A DNA stretch of 29,268 nucleotides from a virus, in IMG/VR virus record IMGVR_UViG_3300017706_000375, positions 1-29,268 of that record; one strand, given 5' to 3'. The notes beneath the pieces were generated by a model. That model saw only the letters and a list, made by a program, of their open reading frames with translations. It was not told the DNA's origin and did no database searches. Each line of letters begins with the position of its first letter. Positions within the stretch are counted from its first letter, which is position 1. Positions 514 through 29,248 of this stretch are shown here, one piece after another. The translations under genes were made by a program, and so were the position numbers.

Positions 514-1431
514 CTATTTGTTACCTTTTTGATTTTCTCGGATCTTTTTGTCAGCCCATGATTTGGCTGACTTACCACCCCAGAGCAAATAACTAATGTA
601 GCCACATGAATTGGTATCTCCATTGTCATAGTCCTCTTCAGCTCTTGCTAGATATGAACTCATGCGTTTTATTACTTCTATGCTCAAAGGTCTCCCTGCT
701 TCCAGATCCGCTCCTCTTTTTTTGCCCACATCAGTGGCACACTTATTACCGTTTTTCTCGTTTAGATCTCTACCCCTCTTAGCGTTATTGCGTACTGATT
801 TAGGGTAATCACTAAATGATTCTAGTTCAGTACGCTTACCCTTTTTTGTTCTACGATCTTTCTTAATGATGGCTCTCACTTGAGCCAGTTTGCGCTCTGC
901 TTCCTGCTCTTTGGCTAGGTTTACTTTATCCACAAAAAAGCCTTCAATACTAAAACCCTTCACCTTACCAGTTTTTACCCAGTCATTCCAGATCTCATCA
1001 TTATTCACTTTCATGCTGACCATCCATGTGCCGATGGGCAGATCCATACCGTACAGTTTGCTCTTATCTTGCGATCCCTCTATGATCCAACTCTCAACCA
1101 CTGTAAGCCCTTCAATATCCACAGCATGTTCTAGAGTAGCCTTGCTCTGGTTTCCGTTCATTAGGAACAGCTCAGATGCCTTGCGTACTGTTTCCTTAGA
1201 GAAATATATATGGTATTCTTGATCACCATCCCTGCGGTAGATCATCTTGTTAGGGATCAGTGCAGATCCCATCAGTATTTTTTTCTCTTGATCTACTGTT
1301 GCTAGTTGCAGTTCTTTCTGCTTATTGAGTGCGATAAAATCCTCTTCAATAGCAGGATCTTCTACTATGCTTATGGCTTGTATGCCAGTAGCAAATGCCT
1401 CTTCATCTAAAATGAGTTCAATTATATTCAT
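514..1431 (-). CDS. XkdF-like prohead serine protease (Peptidase_S78_2 type) with extra C-terminal module
   Basis: A 305-aa protein. Residues about 50-170 match the pattern of XkdF-like phage proteases: an opening MGSALIPNK near 54-62, then TLEHAVDIEGL with H102, VVESW at 111-115, and VKGFSIEGFF around 157-166, where Ser161 is the likely nucleophile. Such proteases trim scaffold and capsid proteins during prohead maturation. Residues about 205-305 form a second module (SDYPKSVRNNAKRG, NGNKCATDVGKKRG, ISYLLWGG) that I know as a recurrent accessory domain of phage head proteins in Bacteroidetes; its function is unknown to me. The start codon overlaps the stop of the tape measure gene as TAATG. 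Its location next to the scaffold-like gene fits the protease role. Confidence 0.85.
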   Translation of the reverse strand: MNIIELILDEEAFATGIQAISIVEDPAIEEDFIALNKQKELQLATVDQEKKILMGSALIPNKMIYRRDGDQEYHIYFSKETVRKASELFLMNGNQSKATLEHAVDIEGLTVVESWIIEGSQDKSKLYGMDLPIGTWMVSMKVNNDEIWNDWVKTGKVKGFSIEGFFVDKVNLAKEQEAERKLAQVRAIIKKDRRTKKGKRTELESFSDYPKSVRNNAKRGRDLNEKNGNKCATDVGKKRGADLEAGRPLSIEVIKRMSSYLARAEEDYDNGDTNSCGYISYLLWGGKSAKSWADKKIRENQKGNK

Positions 1432-3383
1432 TATCCAAAACTTGCGTTACTTACTTTCTTTCTATCTAGTTCTTGCTGTGAGGTTACTTCTGATCCCACT
1501 ACAAATGCTTTCACTGGCTCTTTATTACCCATAGACTGTGCCAGTTGATTAACACCGCTTGAGCCTACCACATTAAACGATGGTGATCGCTGAGGTGCGG
1601 TTGGTATGTTAGGCTCTGATGTACTGCCACCGCCCTCAAATTGTGTTGCTCCAATTTGCGCTACTTGAGCAAAACCTGCAACACCTGCCACAATAGAGTT
1701 TGCTAATCTTACTGGGAATGGTAGCAACCCATCTGCACCCTCTGCTTTTAACGCACCTACAATCGCTTGATATGTACCCACTATGGCTTGACCTTGCGCT
1801 AGGCGTTTCTGAATGTCAAACGCTCTCTTTGCCCTGCTTTCATCCTCACCTGCATACACCTCTGATAAGGCTGTCAATGCATCAAATCCGTTTGTAGCAA
1901 TATCTAGTACAGATTCTTCTAGCTCCATTCTAAGATCCCTACGCAAAAGTGTAGAATCACGCTCTAGGGTATCTATCTCTGCTAGTGCTTCTTTCTCAAT
2001 CATGACTTTCTCATCAGCTAACTGCTTATACAGTTCGCTTTCTGCATCTAAGCCCACCATCTGAGCCTCTAGATCTGCCACCCTTAAACCTGCGATTTCT
2101 GCAATCGCTAGTTTCTGGGCATCTATCTTATCTGATTCTTTAAGTAACAGCTCTGTTTCTAGATCCAGTTCAATTTGTCTTAGGTCTATGGCTCTGTTTC
2201 TAGCCTCTGCTTCTATATCTCTACGCTCTTGCGCTAGGGCATCATTCTCTGCCTCTGCATCGTAACCTGCCTGATTGATCTCATTCTGCTTATCAGCAAT
2301 CTCTGTGAGTTTTTCTTCGTATGCTATACGATCCTCATCTAAGCCAGTCATGTCTGATATGGCTTTGAGGTTTGCCAACTGTATTTTGAGCTGTTCTTTC
2401 TCAGCATCAAGCTGACCTTTAATTAGATCATCTATGATCTTTTGCTGTTCCTCTCTTTTGGCTAGTGTCTGATTTTCTTTATCTCTTTCTGCTGTTGCTT
2501 TGGCTATATCATCGGCATACTTACTAGCGATTTTACCCATTGCCACTTCTGACTGTTCAGCTTGTTTGCGTAACTCAACCATGCGTTCAGCATCTTTCAT
2601 GACCTGATCAGTATCAATGTTTTTCACAGCTGTTGTGGTTGAATCCACAATCGCTGTAACACCTTGTATCACCTCACCTACTGCCTCACCTATATTAGAG
2701 GCAATATCTACTGCCTCTGTTACAATAGTTTTACCTGCTTCAATAATCTTTTCTGAGGTTGCATCTATCTCAGCATTGATCTCTGCAATTTTCTCTGCAT
2801 CGTTTTGACCAAACCATTTCTCATAGGCTTTCTGGACTTGTAGCACACCTAGCTTTAGACTGTTCAAAGAAATGATCAGAGGCTGTAAGGCGATGGTCAT
2901 TAAAGATCCGATCACCTCTTTCATGGCATCAAACCCTCCATTCATTTCCGATACCTTGTTGTAGGCATCGGCAATCGCTTCTGCAATCGTACCCATGACT
3001 ATACCAATGGCATTGGTAACTTTCTCAACTTGATCCATGATCTTCTGGTTGCTCATCAGAGCATCCTTGAGCAACTGGAAACCCTCTACAACTAACATTA
3101 CGCCAGTTGCTTTCATAGCCAGACCTAAGCCCTTAAAACCTTTGCCTAATTTAGCTACACCTTTTTTAGCACCTTGCGCTGTGGCGTTTAAAGCCTTGAG
3201 TAGCTTAGACTGCTCATTCAGCTCATCATTCTGATCAGTGATCGCATCAGTTTGTTTCTGGGTTTCTTTGGTAGCATCAGCTTGAGCAGATGCCAGTTTA
3301 CCCATCATTGCCTCTATGTCTGATATGCGTTTCTCTAGATTACCAGTTTCCGCATTGATCTTGATTGTTTTTTCTACCGCCAT
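1431..3383 (-). CDS. Tail tape measure protein
   Basis: A 650-aa protein with the usual tape-measure layout. It has a coiled-coil N-terminus (residues about 1-70), hydrophobic stretches near 88-112, 123-140 and 157-178, a long charged helical middle rich in Glu, Lys, Ala and Gln (about 260-500), another hydrophobic segment near 560-590 (SIVAGVAGFAQVAQIGA), and a Gly/Ser/Pro-rich tail ending in VSNASFG. It sets siphovirus tail length; at about 0.15 nm per residue it would specify a tail near 100 nm. It lies in the tail block, after the tail hub-like gene, and is followed by the protease gene with a TAATG overlap. A small GTG-start gene overlaps its first 10 bases. Confidence 0.9.
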   Translation of the reverse strand: MAVEKTIKINAETGNLEKRISDIEAMMGKLASAQADATKETQKQTDAITDQNDELNEQSKLLKALNATAQGAKKGVAKLGKGFKGLGLAMKATGVMLVVEGFQLLKDALMSNQKIMDQVEKVTNAIGIVMGTIAEAIADAYNKVSEMNGGFDAMKEVIGSLMTIALQPLIISLNSLKLGVLQVQKAYEKWFGQNDAEKIAEINAEIDATSEKIIEAGKTIVTEAVDIASNIGEAVGEVIQGVTAIVDSTTTAVKNIDTDQVMKDAERMVELRKQAEQSEVAMGKIASKYADDIAKATAERDKENQTLAKREEQQKIIDDLIKGQLDAEKEQLKIQLANLKAISDMTGLDEDRIAYEEKLTEIADKQNEINQAGYDAEAENDALAQERRDIEAEARNRAIDLRQIELDLETELLLKESDKIDAQKLAIAEIAGLRVADLEAQMVGLDAESELYKQLADEKVMIEKEALAEIDTLERDSTLLRRDLRMELEESVLDIATNGFDALTALSEVYAGEDESRAKRAFDIQKRLAQGQAIVGTYQAIVGALKAEGADGLLPFPVRLANSIVAGVAGFAQVAQIGATQFEGGGSTSEPNIPTAPQRSPSFNVVGSSGVNQLAQSMGNKEPVKAFVVGSEVTSQQELDRKKVSNASFG

Positions 3384-6223: not shown

Positions 6224-6844
6224 TTAAGGAGTTGGTGCGTTACCGTAATTGCCGTTCTCAGATACCGCATCCCAGTTAGTTGTAATCTGATTCCAGACTT
6301 GTTCTGCTAAGTTCCAGTCAGTATCAGCAAATGATTCTAATGGGTTCATCCATAAACCCATGACCATCACATCATCTTTGTGTACATACCTCTCTGCATC
6401 TACCATAGTAATACCGTACTGGTAGTGGTAGTTTGCACCATCCTCAAAATTGGAGTAGCCACCAGAGAATAGGAACGCATCCCAGAAACCAGTATGTACT
6501 CTGGCTGTTCCATCTGTATGGGTGTAGTTCATAGTGTACTCAACCTGCGCCCACTTAACCATACCAGATGCAGTATCACCTACTGCACTGTCATCTAAAT
6601 TTGCTGAACTATATTCTATGTACTCGTTTAGAAAGTGGCTTACATCAGCATAAAAATCAGTGCTAGGAAAGTTAGATAACCGCTGTATAGTAAATACTGG
6701 AGCGTTTGGTCTAACTCCGAAATCACTATCCCAGATGTAGATCTTTAGGTTCACCGCTGTGAACGCTGATACCACTGAATTGGTATAGGTAATGATCACT
6801 GGGCTTTTACTGCCCACAAAACCAGTAGGTGCTACTGTTGGCAT
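6224..6844 (-). CDS. Tail protein (206 aa), function unassigned
   Basis: A 206-aa protein, aromatic-rich and probably all-beta (many Tyr, Trp, Asn and Asp), with no signal peptide. It starts MPTVAPTGFVGSKSPVI. Its ATG overlaps the end of the gp10-like gene by one base (TAATG form), and it is followed closely by the 242-aa tail gene, so the two are likely co-translated. Position in the tail block points to a minor tail or tail-tip component. I do not recognise a named family. Confidence 0.65.
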   Translation of the reverse strand: MPTVAPTGFVGSKSPVIITYTNSVVSAFTAVNLKIYIWDSDFGVRPNAPVFTIQRLSNFPSTDFYADVSHFLNEYIEYSSANLDDSAVGDTASGMVKWAQVEYTMNYTHTDGTARVHTGFWDAFLFSGGYSNFEDGANYHYQYGITMVDAERYVHKDDVMVMGLWMNPLESFADTDWNLAEQVWNQITTNWDAVSENGNYGNAPTP

Positions 6845-7440
6845 TATATGTCTATGTTAAATTCATCAATCATTTTCTCAATCTCTTCAGCCACTATAAA
6901 TTGTAGCTGTGCAGGTAACTCAGCATACAGCTCCTCTAGCCCTTTGCTGAAAAACTCGGTTTTGGGCAATCCTCTATCCTTAACCTTTCTGGCAATCAGC
7001 CATGCAAGGTTCTTTCTATTGGCATCCGTTTGCTTAACAAAGCTACCAGTTTCTGGATCTCTCACTTTCACCCTGCGCTTCTTCATCCATTTGAGTATGC
7101 TCATCTGGTGTGCATTACTCTTCATTGAGTATGCATTCTGATATGAGTATGGACTGCCTCCCTGCACCTTAAACTTTCTACCAGATACCCCTGCATCCAG
7201 ATACTTACCATACGATGCCATGAAAAACTCCAGAGCTGAATGAACACCTCCTGCCGTTATTACATAGCCTATACTGTTTTGCAGATTACCAGAGGCAACC
7301 ATTCTACGGTTCGCTGTCTTACCATCATTATACTTAATGCGCTTCTTAGTACCTAGCTCTAGTTTAGCTCTACGAACTACCTCCTTTGCAAATGCATGGA
7401 GCTTACTCTGAATAACATCATTGATAATAGGACTAGCCAC
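6844..7440 (-). CDS. HK97 gp10-like tail completion/neck protein, GTG start
   Basis: A 198-aa basic protein. The first third has the helix then NLQNSIGYVIT pattern seen in HK97 gp10-type head-tail or tail completion proteins, with a positively charged middle. The start is GTG at 7440, which overlaps the stop of the preceding gene by 8 bases (GTGGCTAG); no ATG lies near. The order tail-terminator-like protein then gp10-like protein is typical of siphovirus neck modules, though here it follows the chaperone genes. Moderate confidence in function, high confidence that it is coding. Confidence 0.65.
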   Translation of the reverse strand: MASPIINDVIQSKLHAFAKEVVRRAKLELGTKKRIKYNDGKTANRRMVASGNLQNSIGYVITAGGVHSALEFFMASYGKYLDAGVSGRKFKVQGGSPYSYQNAYSMKSNAHQMSILKWMKKRRVKVRDPETGSFVKQTDANRKNLAWLIARKVKDRGLPKTEFFSKGLEELYAELPAQLQFIVAEEIEKMIDEFNIDI

Positions 7441-7894
7441 AGATACTGATTTTGTTTCTAGTCTGGATAGTTAGATCTACACCCCATCCTGCAAGTAGAT
7501 TCTCAAAGCGATCTGTAAACGGTTCGCACGATGGATCACCTACAAGGTGAAATCCATCTATATGGGCATCACCTTTTTTGAGGTTCTGCACCAGATCATT
7601 TACCACATAGAGCTGAGTGTTCAGTACATCCTGCTCATTATTGATCCCATAGAAAGGCTCTGATTGATCTCTTATATCCTTGCTAGTTACATCTACCACA
7701 TCCATTACGATCACAGAAATAGAATGCTCTATAACATGATCAGTGATTGTGGCACTGCCTAGCATCACATGTGCTAGTGGATATATGCTTTGCTTATTAA
7801 GATCAACCTCAAAAATATCACCGTAGGTAACGGTGTTGATCTGATCGTTTGCATCTAAGATGCCCTTGATTTTGTCTAGTATATCATAAACCAT
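7433..7894 (-). CDS. Tail terminator/tail completion-like protein (153 aa)
   Basis: The protein starts MVYDILDKIKGILDAN at ATG 7894. An upstream in-frame extension of 18 codons to 7948 would read through the stem and T-run of the terminator at 7932-7956 and only mimics a signal peptide, so I reject it. The product has the alpha/beta profile and the DILDKIK...NTVTYGDIFEVDL opening known from small tail proteins of Bacteroidetes phages, probably a tail terminator that caps the tube. Its start codon is the last part of a 17-base leader shared with the gene at 492. Its stop overlaps the GTG start of the gp10-like gene. Confidence 0.65.
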   Translation of the reverse strand: MVYDILDKIKGILDANDQINTVTYGDIFEVDLNKQSIYPLAHVMLGSATITDHVIEHSISVIVMDVVDVTSKDIRDQSEPFYGINNEQDVLNTQLYVVNDLVQNLKKGDAHIDGFHLVGDPSCEPFTDRFENLLAGWGVDLTIQTRNKISICG

Positions 7895-7907
7895 ATATAT
7901 AGAACCT
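7891..7907 (-). promoter_or_regulatory. Shared 17-nt leader over a start codon (copy 2)
   Basis: Identical on the minus strand to the sequence at 489-505 (AGGTTCTATATATATGG), again ending in the ATG of a gene. It lies 24 bases downstream of the T-run of a terminator, where expression of the tail block would have to resume. Confidence 0.45.
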
Positions 7908-7931
7908 AAAAGCAGGGTAAGTGTAGTACAC

Positions 7932-7956
7932 AAAAAAAAGGAGCGCAATGCGCTCC
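7932..7956 (-). terminator. Intrinsic terminator after the 74-aa gene
   Basis: The minus strand reads GGAGCGCATTGCGCTCC followed by eight T. The arms are perfectly complementary (GGAGCG/CGCTCC with a 5-base loop), and the run of T is immediate. It closes the single-gene unit 7962-8186 and precedes the tail-terminator-like gene. Confidence 0.85.
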
Positions 7957-7961
7957 TTATG

Positions 7962-8186
7962 CTATTCTGAAACCTCAGCCCACATCTCTAGTTTGCTGAG
8001 TATCTCCTGCATCATTATTGCAGGAAACTCTGGTGTCATGATCGGGCGTTTGCCCTCATCCACCATTGTCTGGAGTTCAGACCGCATGGCTTCAGCATGT
8101 GAGGCAAATGCCTCTTTGATCCAGAAGAGATCTCCACCATTTAAGGCATGGCGATCTCTATACTCCTTTGTTAGTTTGTAGTCCAT
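7962..8186 (-). CDS. Orphan 74-aa protein in its own promoter-terminator cassette (moron-like)
   Basis: I choose ATG at 8186 (MDYKLTKEYRDRHALNGGDL). A GTG 39 bases upstream would put the start only 3 bases from the promoter -7 element, and the ATG has the leader TTAACCAA 10 bases before it. The product is soluble and amphipathic-helical, with FWIKEAFASHAEAMRSELQTM in the middle; no family is recognised. The gene has a Bacteroidetes-type promoter candidate at 8228-8260 and a strong terminator at 7932-7956, so it is a self-contained unit inside the tail block. That arrangement is typical of phage morons, accessory genes often expressed independently of the lytic programme. Function unknown. Confidence 0.75.
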   Translation of the reverse strand: MDYKLTKEYRDRHALNGGDLFWIKEAFASHAEAMRSELQTMVDEGKRPIMTPEFPAIMMQEILSKLEMWAEVSE

Positions 8187-8196
8187 TTGTGTAAGG

Positions 8197-8204
8197 TTGG
8201 TTAA
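8197..8204 (-). promoter_or_regulatory. TTAACCAA leader motif before ATG 8186
   Basis: TTAACCAA on the minus strand, 10 bases before the ATG. The same octamer lies 11 bases before ATG 12464 and 12 bases before ATG 17654, each the first gene after a spacer. Confidence 0.4.
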
Positions 8205-8227
8205 ATGGTTGCGGTCGTTCCGCACCG

Positions 8228-8266: not shown

Positions 8267-8536
8267 TTACTTTTTATTTATTGAACGCTCTATGGATTTA
8301 CGCTCTAGATCCTGCCGTTCTTGATCGTAGACCAGTTTGGTAAAGCATAAATGTATAGGCAGTTTAGTTACCTCATCATAGCGTAATAGATCACCATCTG
8401 CTAAATGATCTATACTGGATAGCCATCCCCACTTCCTGCTAAAGTTACCCTCTGGTGTTAGGTTTGTTCCAGTGTCGGAATCTTGATCTCCAAAGATGTC
8501 TGGGTATGTTGCGATAACTCCTTGCTTAAATCGCAA
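8267..8536 (-). CDS. Tail assembly chaperone, T-domain extension reached by -1 frameshift
   Basis: This 89-codon frame has no ATG at its start; its first possible codon is TTG at 8536, exactly the codon entered after a -1 slip at T TTT TTT (8536-8542). It overlaps the end of the chaperone gene by 79 bases. The sequence, with SRKWGWLSSIDHLADGDLL and DEVTKLPIHLCFTKL, resembles the T domain of tail chaperones in related Bacteroidetes phages. The fused product would be 164 + 89 = 253 aa. By analogy with lambda gpG/gpGT, the short form coats the tape measure and the long form recruits tail-tube subunits. A sequencing error in the T9 run is the alternative. Confidence 0.75.
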   Translation of the reverse strand: MRFKQGVIATYPDIFGDQDSDTGTNLTPEGNFSRKWGWLSSIDHLADGDLLRYDEVTKLPIHLCFTKLVYDQERQDLERKSIERSINKK

Positions 8537-9027
8537 AAAAAAACCAGTGCGCCCAGAGCTACACCTAGTGGGAAATCCTTGTAGCCATCATTAGGCTCAT
8601 ACGGTTCTATTGTATATCTCTGCCCTACCTTTTGCGTTATTGGTCTGTATAGGACTGCTACCGTTTTGTGTAGCATGTCCATATCAGATAGGTACTCATC
8701 CAGATCCACATACTCCCCTAAACTTATCTCTTCTAGCATAGGTATAAATCCGTACTCTGTACCCTTGTATTCTATGATCGGAGTAAGTGAATGTTTTGTG
8801 CCAATCATCTCTAGTAGCTCACTCATCATGGTAAAGAAACCATCGGACTGCATCGTTAAGGCGGTGCGTAACGGTATGCTTAAAAAGATCTCTGATGCCT
8901 TGAGCAGTGAGAATGTAATGTCATCAGTATCTACCTTTAGGTATTTCTGGTACTGCTCAACTGTAAGCTCATTGACATGCTCAGGGAACATGATCTTCAT
9001 TTCCTTATCTGATGGCGTATGTTCCAT
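8458..9027 (-). CDS. Tail assembly chaperone (gpG-like, 189 aa)
   Basis: A 189-aa acidic helical protein with GTEYGFIPMLEEISLGEYVDLDEYL near residues 89-113 and a VAVLYRPI motif near 123-130, as in tail chaperones of flavobacterial phages. The role would be to bind the tape measure protein during tail assembly. Codons 162-164 (GTT TTT TTT before TGC) contain a T TTT TTT heptamer that would let a fraction of ribosomes shift to the -1 frame and make a 253-aa fusion. The start overlaps the end of the large terminase gene by 23 bases. The gene sits far from the tape measure, separated by neck and tail-tip genes, which is not the canonical order. Confidence 0.8.
   Translation of the reverse strand: MEHTPSDKEMKIMFPEHVNELTVEQYQKYLKVDTDDITFSLLKASEIFLSIPLRTALTMQSDGFFTMMSELLEMIGTKHSLTPIIEYKGTEYGFIPMLEEISLGEYVDLDEYLSDMDMLHKTVAVLYRPITQKVGQRYTIEPYEPNDGYKDFPLGVALGALVFFCDLSKELSQHTQTSLEIKIPTLEQT
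8509..8543 (-). promoter_or_regulatory. Programmed -1 ribosomal frameshift site and stem
   Basis: Nine consecutive T (8535-8543) read in the zero frame as GTT TTT TTT TGC, giving the heptamer T TTT TTT. It is followed by a potential hairpin: TTGCGAT (8530-8536) pairs perfectly with ATCGCAA (8509-8515) across a 14-base loop; the part strictly downstream of the heptamer is TGCGAT/ATCGCA. A -1 slip enters the 89-codon T-domain frame at TTG 8536. Confidence 0.75.
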
Positions 9028-10225
9028 AATTTTTGTTTGTCTTTCTGTTGTAGTTGGTAATCGCTAGGCTCATGACCGTATCATCATGTAGCCCTACTGG
9101 ATGTCCGTATCTTATGTTCCTAGTCTTAGGGCTGTACTCATAGGTAAAGTAGCCCATCTCTTGATAGAGGTATGGGAATAATGTTTCATTAGGAATACAG
9201 ATCCCCCTCTCATTTGTATCAATAATAAGCCCTTCTATGATCTCTGTTTTGCTCTGGTGCGTAGTGATAAATGGATGGGTGTTCTGCCACTGCATTTTGA
9301 TCTGCTCATAGATCGGATCTCCCACACCATTAACCTCAACCATGCATGAGGCATTGAACTTCCTTAATCGGCTCACCACCTCTTTGATCATGGTGTGCCA
9401 TTGATTCTGGTTATCTCTATACACATCAACCACAATACCTTTCTGATCCATGATTGTAAGCACTGTAAAATCCTCTTGCTTTCCTATGTCCAGACCTGCA
9501 AAGCATTTGCCTACTGGTGATGGGTACTTATCTAGTATGGCGATCTGATCCACATTCTGGAACACCTCACCACCTCCATCTAGGAACTCAGCCAGATACT
9601 CCTGCCTAAACACTTTCTCTGGTACTGTCTTTTTTGCCTCATTGATCTCTGCCTCATCTATAAACGGTGTGTCGTATGAACTGCCCTTGTAGGATTTGTA
9701 GTTAGGGTACTCTGAAGATGTGCCGTATTGATACAGATCGTAAAACCAGTTCTTTCCTTTGGGTGTAGAAATGAACAGTACCTTTTTACCTCTGACCAGT
9801 AAGGTAGGCTTGATTGCCTCCCTCCATGCATCATCCTTAATGTACCCTGCCTCATCTACGATTGCATAATCTAAGGTCATACCCCTGATGTTATCATACC
9901 TCTCAGCTGATCTAAAATAGATCACTGATCCAGTTGATAGTGTGATCTCATTTGTGGAGTAGTTATTTGATCTGAGCAGGGCAGTGCCACCTATGGCTTC
10001 AATCACTTCTTTCTGCACCTTGTTAGCTTGAGAATATACTGGAGATACCCAGAGGATCTTGCAGGGTGCATCATTGATCGCCCAGTATAAAGCTAGGTTC
10101 TCTGCCATCATAGATTTACCGAACTGCCTACCTATGGATGCAATATGGTATTTCTCTGATCCGTTGATCACGCTGTTTAGCAATTCCCTTTGTTTAGGGT
10201 GTGGTGTGAATGCGGTTATCTCCAT
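9005..10225 (-). CDS. terL: Terminase large subunit
   Basis: A 406-aa protein with both terminase domains. The ATPase has Walker A GRQFGKS (residues 32-38) and Walker B YAIVDEAG with D124-E125, followed by the coupling motif FISTPKG (151-157). The RNase H-like nuclease has acidic residues D246 (AGLDIGKQED), E297 (MVEVNGVGD) and D381/D382 (HDDTVMSLA). It cuts concatemeric DNA and pumps it into proheads. It lies 8 bases after the small terminase gene and overlaps the chaperone gene by 23 bases. The length is compact but complete. The portal is about 14 kb away, which is unusual. Confidence 0.95.
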   Translation of the reverse strand: MEITAFTPHPKQRELLNSVINGSEKYHIASIGRQFGKSMMAENLALYWAINDAPCKILWVSPVYSQANKVQKEVIEAIGGTALLRSNNYSTNEITLSTGSVIYFRSAERYDNIRGMTLDYAIVDEAGYIKDDAWREAIKPTLLVRGKKVLFISTPKGKNWFYDLYQYGTSSEYPNYKSYKGSSYDTPFIDEAEINEAKKTVPEKVFRQEYLAEFLDGGGEVFQNVDQIAILDKYPSPVGKCFAGLDIGKQEDFTVLTIMDQKGIVVDVYRDNQNQWHTMIKEVVSRLRKFNASCMVEVNGVGDPIYEQIKMQWQNTHPFITTHQSKTEIIEGLIIDTNERGICIPNETLFPYLYQEMGYFTYEYSPKTRNIRYGHPVGLHDDTVMSLAITNYNRKTNKNYGTYAIR

Positions 10226-28335: not shown

Positions 28336-28797
28336 TTATCGTTTTATTTTATCTGCAAATGCAGTGATATTCTGTAATCTAGATGAACGCCAGTTATCAA
28401 CTAGATCATCATGAGCAGATTCTGTGGTTTGCACCATCTCTCTAGCCTCATCAAAGCGATCAAAAATATCATCAGCATTCATGCCTAAACCTTTTGCTGA
28501 TTCCTCTACTTTATCTAATAGATCATTTAATTCATCAGAGGCATCTTTAGCGAATAGCATCTGTGAATTGATGATCATCTCATCTACTGCAAGGCTGATA
28601 TCAGACAGTTTTTCTTCTAGATCATCCATCATTTCATAGGTAAAGTAAGTAAGATCCATCATTGATCCTTCTACCTCACCCATTTTGCGTTCTATGTCAT
28701 CAACTAAGCTCAGTTTTACATTGCGCTTAGTTGATCCTAGATTAGTTCCTTTTTTCGCTTTGGACAATTCAGCCCAAACTTGTTGTAGTTTCTTCAT
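28336..28797 (-). CDS. Tandem paralog B upstream of capsid gene (153 aa)
   Basis: A 153-aa acidic helical protein. Residues 1-29 (KKLQQVWAELSKAKKGTNLG then KRNVKL) match the neighbouring 149-aa protein closely; the rest is diverged but keeps the same coiled-coil pattern and a shared segment around LGMNADDIFDRFDEARE. An exact 17-base repeat (28763-28779 and 29214-29230) lies in the same place of both genes. Both stand just before the capsid gene. A scaffold or capsid-assembly role is possible, but no family function is known to me. Confidence 0.7.
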   Translation of the reverse strand: MKKLQQVWAELSKAKKGTNLGSTKRNVKLSLVDDIERKMGEVEGSMMDLTYFTYEMMDDLEEKLSDISLAVDEMIINSQMLFAKDASDELNDLLDKVEESAKGLGMNADDIFDRFDEAREMVQTTESAHDDLVDNWRSSRLQNITAFADKIKR

Positions 28798-28798
28798 G

Positions 28799-29248
28799 TT
28801 ACTTGAGATTTGTTAAGCGGTATACTAATGGAAATTTATCTTCTAGATCATCAAACTCTCCTTGAGTTGCTCTCATTAACGCCATCATTCTTTTAGCCTC
28901 ATCTATCTCATCATAGATCTCATCTGCATCTACACCTAATGCACTAGCACTATCCTCAATTCTTTTAATAGCATCAGTAAGCTCATCAGCAAAATCTTCT
29001 AAGGAACTCGCTTCGCTATTGACAATGATGTTATCTACTTTTCTTTGGACTTCATAACATGCATCTTCTAGCTCTGGCATTAGTTCTTCTATGATGTAAA
29101 CTGCCTCATTGTATGCATTTTCACCATATTCTCTGGCATTCTCTACATCTTGAATTGCATTAAGTTTAACACCTCGCTTTTTAGAGCTGAGGTTTGTATT
29201 CTTTTTGCCTTTAGACAATTCAGCCCAAACCTTTTGTACTTTCTTCAT
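28799..29248 (-). CDS. Tandem paralog A upstream of capsid gene (149 aa)
   Basis: A 149-aa acidic helical protein, MKKVQKVWAELSKGKKNTNL, followed by a long amphipathic helix region and LGVDADEIYDEIDEAKRMM near 103-121, aligned with the same segment of paralog B. The gap to paralog B is one base. The first 20 bases of the right end (29249-29268) are AT-rich and noncoding. In a circular arrangement the scaffold-like gene at 1-129 would precede it. Function unknown. Confidence 0.7.
   Translation of the reverse strand: MKKVQKVWAELSKGKKNTNLSSKKRGVKLNAIQDVENAREYGENAYNEAVYIIEELMPELEDACYEVQRKVDNIIVNSEASSLEDFADELTDAIKRIEDSASALGVDADEIYDEIDEAKRMMALMRATQGEFDDLEDKFPLVYRLTNLK

Follow-up and report, generated by a model that had tools for sequence, protein, structure and literature searches.

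We analysed a viral DNA window of 29,268 nucleotides (the whole of the stretch presented above, positions 1 to 29,268 of the IMG/VR record IMGVR_UViG_3300017706_000375), focusing on a minus-strand gene in which a run of nine T joins two overlapping reading frames. The gene, hereafter the slip gene, its parts and its neighbours are laid out as follows.

9005..10225, minus strand: large terminase subunit (TerL), directly upstream of the slip gene, with a 23-base overlap (phrog_2, E 7.8e-50; PF03237, E 1.1e-18).
8458..9027, minus strand: frame-0 gene of the short product, 189 codons (189 aa), made of a conserved domain (residues 1-164) and a 25-residue frame-0 tail (phrog_32199, E 1.5e-10).
8535..8543, minus strand: slippage site, a T9 run in GTT TTT TTT T, found as T9 or T10 in all relatives.
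8267..8536, minus strand: extension in the -1 frame, 89 aa counting its first codon TTG, with a conserved KWGWY..LA.GD domain and its stop at 8269-8267.
8267..9027, minus strand: predicted fusion product of 253 aa, read in frame 0 from 9027 to 8536 and then from 8536 to 8267, base 8536 being read twice.
7433..7948, minus strand: 171-aa protein, conserved downstream neighbour in 251 of the 257 loci with enough downstream DNA (phrog_30964, function unknown).
6844..7440, minus strand: 198-aa protein, placed by synteny (phrog_29822, function unknown).
1431..3383, minus strand: 650-aa probable tape measure protein, about 5 kb downstream, recognised from phrog_32985 (function unknown), from its composition and from a homologous C-terminus in phage P12024S (43%).

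Around the slip, the gene reads GGC GCA CTG GTT TTT TTT TGC GAT TTA AGC, with the final TTT codon ending at 8536. After a -1 shift within the run, reading would continue as TTG CGA TTT AAG and onwards through 89 open codons, ending at 8267. A first-pass annotation made from the letters of the window had described this layout, which lies on the minus strand, accurately, with a 189-codon frame containing GTT TTT TTT TGC, a T run at 8535-8543 (exactly nine T) and an overlapping 89-codon frame devoid of ATG and entered after a -1 slip, which is indeed open from 8536 to 8267. Four other nine-base runs of T or A occur in the window, all of them outside its main genes.

An initial search with the 189-aa protein returned 29 viral loci, all of them carrying T9 in the same phase and a -1 frame that is open and similar wherever the contig continues. 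Profile searches using progressively more distant alignments extended this set to 405 loci holding both domains, leaving out 5 further loci that end at a contig edge ahead of the second domain. Nearly all of the search patterns were protein motifs located elsewhere than in the T run. In 405 of these 405 loci it is the -1 frame that encodes the second domain, with no case in the +1 frame and none in a single frame. Among the 319 non-identical loci, the run counts nine T in 289 and ten T in 30, and is never shorter, while elsewhere in the coding DNA of 307 of these loci (1.10 Mb) T9 occurs once, T8 13 times and T7 49 times. Only one relative was retrieved by a scan of cellular genome contigs, in a Bacteroidetes MAG (L112). 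Conservation of the T run in related genomes, the check proposed by the first-pass annotation, is thus observed in 405/405 relatives, which carry T9 or T10 at one and the same site and with the same frame relation. This annotation had also named raw reads with 8 or 10 T, and relatives in which the frames form one gene or are unrelated genes with their own starts, as observations that would speak against a programmed shift: among the loci read here, no run of 8 T and no single-frame locus was encountered, and the 30 loci with T10 show the layout in two frames as well.

BFVD contains predicted proteins of 234-267 aa (A0A6J5N0W0, A0A516L611, A0A516L5A8, A0A6J5SVK3 and others) that match both the N-terminal domain (N-domain) and the extension. 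They may be natural single-frame fusions or assembly variants, and single-frame versions of the gene may exist. The two frames could alternatively stem from an erroneous assembly or sequence, or from a gene in decay: homopolymers are prone to error, and some of these proteins appear to have both domains within a single ORF. The run recurs nevertheless across more than 300 independent contigs as well as in two isolates, the phages P12024S and P12024L, and purifying selection is strong on both sides of it. Since the same T9 and extension are found in relatives and in P12024S/L, sequencing error is excluded for practical purposes, and the probability that we leave to an error or a decaying gene is negligible.

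In these two isolates (Inhavirus phages of Nonlabens), gp38-gp39 form a homologous gene (phrog_32199) located at the same position directly behind the terminase, with CTT TTT TTT TAT followed by the same -1 extension, and a search with the extension of a relative alone finds this place. They differ from the window by a protein identity of 23-25%, by a terminase of a different family and by the annotation of the two parts as separate hypothetical proteins. Following this P12024S/L annotation, the extension could form a distinct gene that has a start of its own, like gp39 of P12024S. However, in 192 of the 319 loci the -1 frame is free of ATG, GTG and TTG all the way from its upstream stop to the 20th codon after the slip, and an ATG is found in 8 only; since most loci are devoid of any start codon in the needed stretch, the extension generally cannot start on its own. 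Conservation moreover sets in already at the slip, ahead of the ATG annotated in P12024S, making a separate gene very improbable. The intervals annotated as genes of their own (L031:12528-12695, which is P12024S gp39, and L032:5528-5695) correspond to the -1-frame extension of the preceding gene, and on this comparison the separate gp39 is a misannotation in a reference phage genome. The shift itself can be placed most narrowly in locus L229, which reads GCT AGT TTT TTT TTG, with a -1-frame TAG directly ahead of the run and a minimum open distance of 2 codons: because this TAG adjoins the run, a shift upstream of it is excluded there. P12024S/L infect a marine member of the Bacteroidota, Persicivirga sp. 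IMCC12024 of the genus Nonlabens; together with the Bacteroidetes MAG relative, this points to a Bacteroidota host for the virus of the window.

Substitutions counted by codon position in 168 sister pairs revealed the selection acting on each frame. Upstream of the run, changes at frame-0 positions 1/2/3 amount to 822/597/2677 and are dominated by the third position. Beyond the end of frame 0 they amount to 246/1235/413, peaking where the -1 frame has its third codon position, with an intermediate pattern in the overlap (548/1236/1006). The concentration of changes at the -1 third position behind frame 0 shows that this frame encodes protein. Changes per site at this position are fewer in the overlap than behind it (0.14 vs 0.24), which suggests some constraint on the frame-0 tail as well. 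Comparative genomics thereby confirms the T9 slip as a real and selected two-product device. The nested 189-aa and 253-aa forms proposed in the first-pass annotation accordingly receive strong support from the conserved T9 and from an open -1 frame under selection.

The gene had been described as lying directly after the large terminase and far from the tape measure gene, an accurate description that extends to its relatives, with a large terminase upstream in 277 of the 287 loci with enough upstream DNA. Two terminase families are involved: that of the window (9005-10225) is matched in only 24 of the 319 loci and that of P12024 in 269, the slip gene standing directly behind both. From these matches, the packaging gene is swapped and the neighbouring cassette kept. 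Downstream, the 171-aa protein is possibly a tail completion or terminator protein, and the 198-aa protein, judging from sequence only, possibly an HK97 gp10-like head-tail or tail completion protein. An 87-aa ORF (7962-8225) that separates the slip gene from the following conserved gene is present in 1 of the 319 relatives. The gene order of the window is otherwise unusual, in that a long distance separates the capsid, possible tail tube and portal genes from both the terminase and the tape measure gene, the latter being located at the other end of the record. Beside the capsid gene, two adjacent genes (28336-28797, 153 aa, and 28799-29248, 149 aa) with near-alike starts (MKK.Q.VWAELSK.KK.TNL) are apparently a tandem duplication.

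Protein identity was explored on the N-domain (residues 1-164) and on the extension modelled separately, not as a fusion. The N-domain model (pLDDT 87) matched uncharacterised phage proteins in BFVD, and a Foldseek search of this model against the PDB gave no match at E <= 0.001. When 177 candidate PDB chains were re-aligned, the only entry shown above Z 2 was the HK97 tail assembly chaperone 2ob9, a weak though specific match (Z 3.4, 66 residues aligned, rmsd 4.2) of a kind (Z <8) that can reflect a common arrangement. The extension model (pLDDT 72) had no meaningful match in the PDB, nor did a PDB sequence search with the profiles of both domains return anything meaningful. Pfam gave no match to a tail assembly chaperone (TAC) family, NCBIfam gave no match, and hhalign to HK97 gp13 gave a probability of 0.1, that is, no profile similarity. 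Weak matches to phrog_166 ('tail protein') were obtained for 10 of 39 family members, with a best E of 7e-5. Two possible counterparts were considered and set aside. Flavobacterium phage 6H gp10, reached from a weak fold match, has neither a T9 nor a clear counterpart, and protein 3 of Elizabethkingia phage TCUEAP1 (180 aa, behind TerL), whose C-terminus resembles the extension (E 0.03), is one ordinary ORF and represents a candidate homology only.

The frame layout is that expected of tail assembly chaperones, a shared N-terminus and a long form made by a -1 shift near the 3' end being predicted in 405 of 405 relatives. The position is not, as the gene lies behind TerL with other genes intervening, instead of between the major tail protein and tape measure genes. 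By analogy of architecture, with the weak fold match to 2ob9 and the location in a packaging/tail block, a gpG/gpGT-like tail assembly chaperone pair appears quite probable. The tail-chaperone role put forward at first pass is in this sense likely, although it comes with no Pfam TAC match and no sequence match to HK97 gp13, and in view of the differing position and the weak fold match we do not file the gene as a proven gpG/gpGT member. The device could alternatively be real and the protein something else, for instance a packaging or head-tail joining factor. Such a factor would suit a gene that, in almost every relative, follows TerL immediately and that stands some 5 kb away from the tape measure gene, and would agree with a phrog (phrog_32199) of no assigned function, with a weak HK97 match and with the missing profile similarity to HK97 gp13. 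Yet a short form with a C-terminal extension made at a slippery site, in small and largely helical proteins of a tail block, is what characterises gpG/gpGT. Among solved folds only that of a TAC was matched, and no other frameshifted or chaperone-like gene was seen beside the tape measure gene of the window. A non-chaperone function is for these reasons considered unlikely.

The length and phase of the run bear on the machine that slips. In vivo, a stretch of nine A or T causes efficient slippage of bacterial RNA polymerase, whose RNA:DNA hybrid measures 9-10 bp (PMC5009743). Insertions during bacterial transcription are mostly single bases located in A/T runs and become exponentially more frequent as the run lengthens (PMC5574713), and selection against such runs is visible from nine on in many genomes (PMC1088944). 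Taking the four codons that read GTT TTT TTT TGC in the window, loci whose codon 4 is devoid of its first T (GGG, CTG or GTG; L194, L134/L146, L278, L280) have TTT as codon 1, and loci whose codon 1 is devoid of its middle T (GCT in L240, AGT in L229) have TTN (TTC or TTG) as codon 4. The nearest neighbours of these phase-slid lineages in the protein tree are mostly of ordinary phase, and the independent phase-slid lineages are few, about 3-6. Shuffling codon 4 against codon 1 predicts 5.5-6.6 runs shorter than nine where 0 are observed, a value reached in none of 20,000 permutations, and the outcome was unchanged with 121 thinned dissimilar sequences. That lost end T's are offset at the other end and that no run falls below nine point to selection on the uninterrupted length of the run regardless of codon phase. 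The alignments thus demonstrate two frames, a universal T9/T10 and selection on both the -1 frame and the run length. An uninterrupted A/T run of at least about nine, kept in any codon phase as it appears to be here, is a feature of programmed transcriptional slippage.

A programmed -1 ribosomal frameshift at T TTT TTT, as in lambda gpG/gpGT, would account for the same two products, the extra T's then serving the protein or the efficiency of the shift. Ribosomal -1 frameshifting is the known mechanism for the tail assembly chaperones of many long-tailed phages (PMC5009743). The heptamer, of the X XXY YYZ type, is in the correct phase in all 319 loci, and ribosomal slippage is possible at every site since each T9 run holds it. 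The residues flanking and covering the run (V/L-F-F-L) are conserved and hydrophobic, and the end T's may in part be protein constraints, which, together with the small number of independent phase-slid lineages, is the main weakness of the argument from length. For a ribosomal -1 slip, however, the seven T of T TTT TTT suffice, yet no run of 7 or 8 T is found and end T's lost on one side are replaced on the other. Tryptophan and serine are moreover accepted as first residue of the extension, and alanine and serine in codon 1, so that the end T's are not strictly imposed by the protein.

RNA structure near the run was not in excess, with a mean z of +0.06 upstream and -0.18/-0.25 downstream against -0.33/-0.52 in controls, in an analysis that covered stems. 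The stem proposed by the first-pass annotation, TTGCGAT/ATCGCAA (8509..8536, minus strand), does occur in the window but is already broken in the 98%-identical relative L001 (ATCTCAA) and in L004 (ATCACAA), and shows no covariation, 68.1% of cells being paired vs 68.2% in shuffles; it is probably not part of the device. No conserved downstream stem that would assist a ribosomal shift was found, although a downstream stem or pseudoknot is not obligatory at every known -1 frameshift site. A nascent 5' hairpin beside the slippery run is known from Roseiflexus IS elements. As a general feature it was rejected here, being absent in the window's own family as well as overall, as the upstream z indicates. 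A short hairpin does adjoin the T9, within 30 bases upstream, in L008, L027 and some 30 relatives with VALGAT; it shows paired synonymous changes (GTTGC/GCAAC vs GTAGC/GCTAC) and could stimulate polymerase slippage in that subclade only.

The direction of the shift adds a further element. One extra U fits the need of the gene, while the loss of one U would lead to an early stop, located within 7 codons in 315 of the 319 sites. A length of at least nine in any phase, the lack of a conserved stimulator and the one-base insertion typical of polymerase put transcriptional slippage slightly ahead. We therefore slightly favour RNA polymerase slippage over ribosomal -1 frameshifting, and both can act together. 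The lambda-type ribosomal frameshift initially proposed thus keeps its frame relation and its heptamer and loses its stem, with polymerase slippage providing a somewhat better fit to the comparative data. A ribosomal shift as in lambda, with the additional T's kept for other reasons, appears rather less probable than even, while being the most serious of the alternatives considered here.

Taken as a whole, the locus is best explained as a two-product chaperone-type gene of Bacteroidota siphophages, slipping at T9, with the polymerase as the likelier main mechanism, a reading to which we give a probability of roughly 0.55. The machine that slips, the amounts of the products and the chaperone role are what we infer within it. 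Most expression would yield the short frame-0 protein of 189 aa, and a fraction the 253-aa form, in which a -1-encoded domain of about 80-90 residues would replace the frame-0 tail. Slipping at T9, the host RNA polymerase would add one U, giving a U10 mRNA to be read normally by ribosomes, with a possible contribution from ribosomes slipping by -1 on U UUU UUU. If lambda gpG/gpGT is taken as the model, the short form would serve to coat the tape measure protein, while recruitment of the tail tube protein would fall to the long form. The more specific proposal, that this siphophage lineage makes its gpG/gpGT-like pair by polymerase and not ribosomal slippage at T9, as a new chaperone family behind the terminase, comes close to an even chance but falls just short of it.

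Frameshifted tail chaperones are already known, and what appears to be new is the family, its wide distribution, its strict T9/T10 and a possible transcriptional device. Few features of long-tailed phages are as well conserved as the gpG/gpGT device, which is regarded as ribosomal, and our literature search, in which subscription journals are thinly covered, found no report of transcriptional slippage in a phage tail chaperone. The present chaperone-like family, widespread in environmental viral contigs, has been missed by annotation, its second half being recorded as a separate gene in the annotated isolate pair. The proposed device is directly testable in an isolated pair, phage P12024S and its marine host Persicivirga sp. 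IMCC12024.

Like lambda gpG/gpGT and HK97 gp13/gp14, the gene of the window would encode a short protein and a long form with a -1-frame C-terminal domain, both small and largely helical and encoded in a late block, and its N-domain has a weak fold match to HK97 gp13 (2ob9). It differs from these chaperones in its place after TerL, remote from the tape measure gene, in having no detectable sequence similarity to HK97 gp13, in a T9/T10 run where they have a two-base heptamer, in the absence of a conserved stimulator and in a mechanism that may be transcriptional. The closest parallels for such a mechanism are the transcriptional slippage of Thermus thermophilus dnaX (PMC5009743, PMC1088944) and that of the Shigella mxiE type (PMC4256274), where an uninterrupted run of nine A/T likewise lies in coding sequence and an extra base opens another frame. 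Those are bacterial genes and not phage morphogenesis genes, and slippage in the present family is deduced from comparative data alone. If the polymerase does slip here, the same ratio problem would have been solved by another machine, as for dnaX in Thermus vs E. coli.
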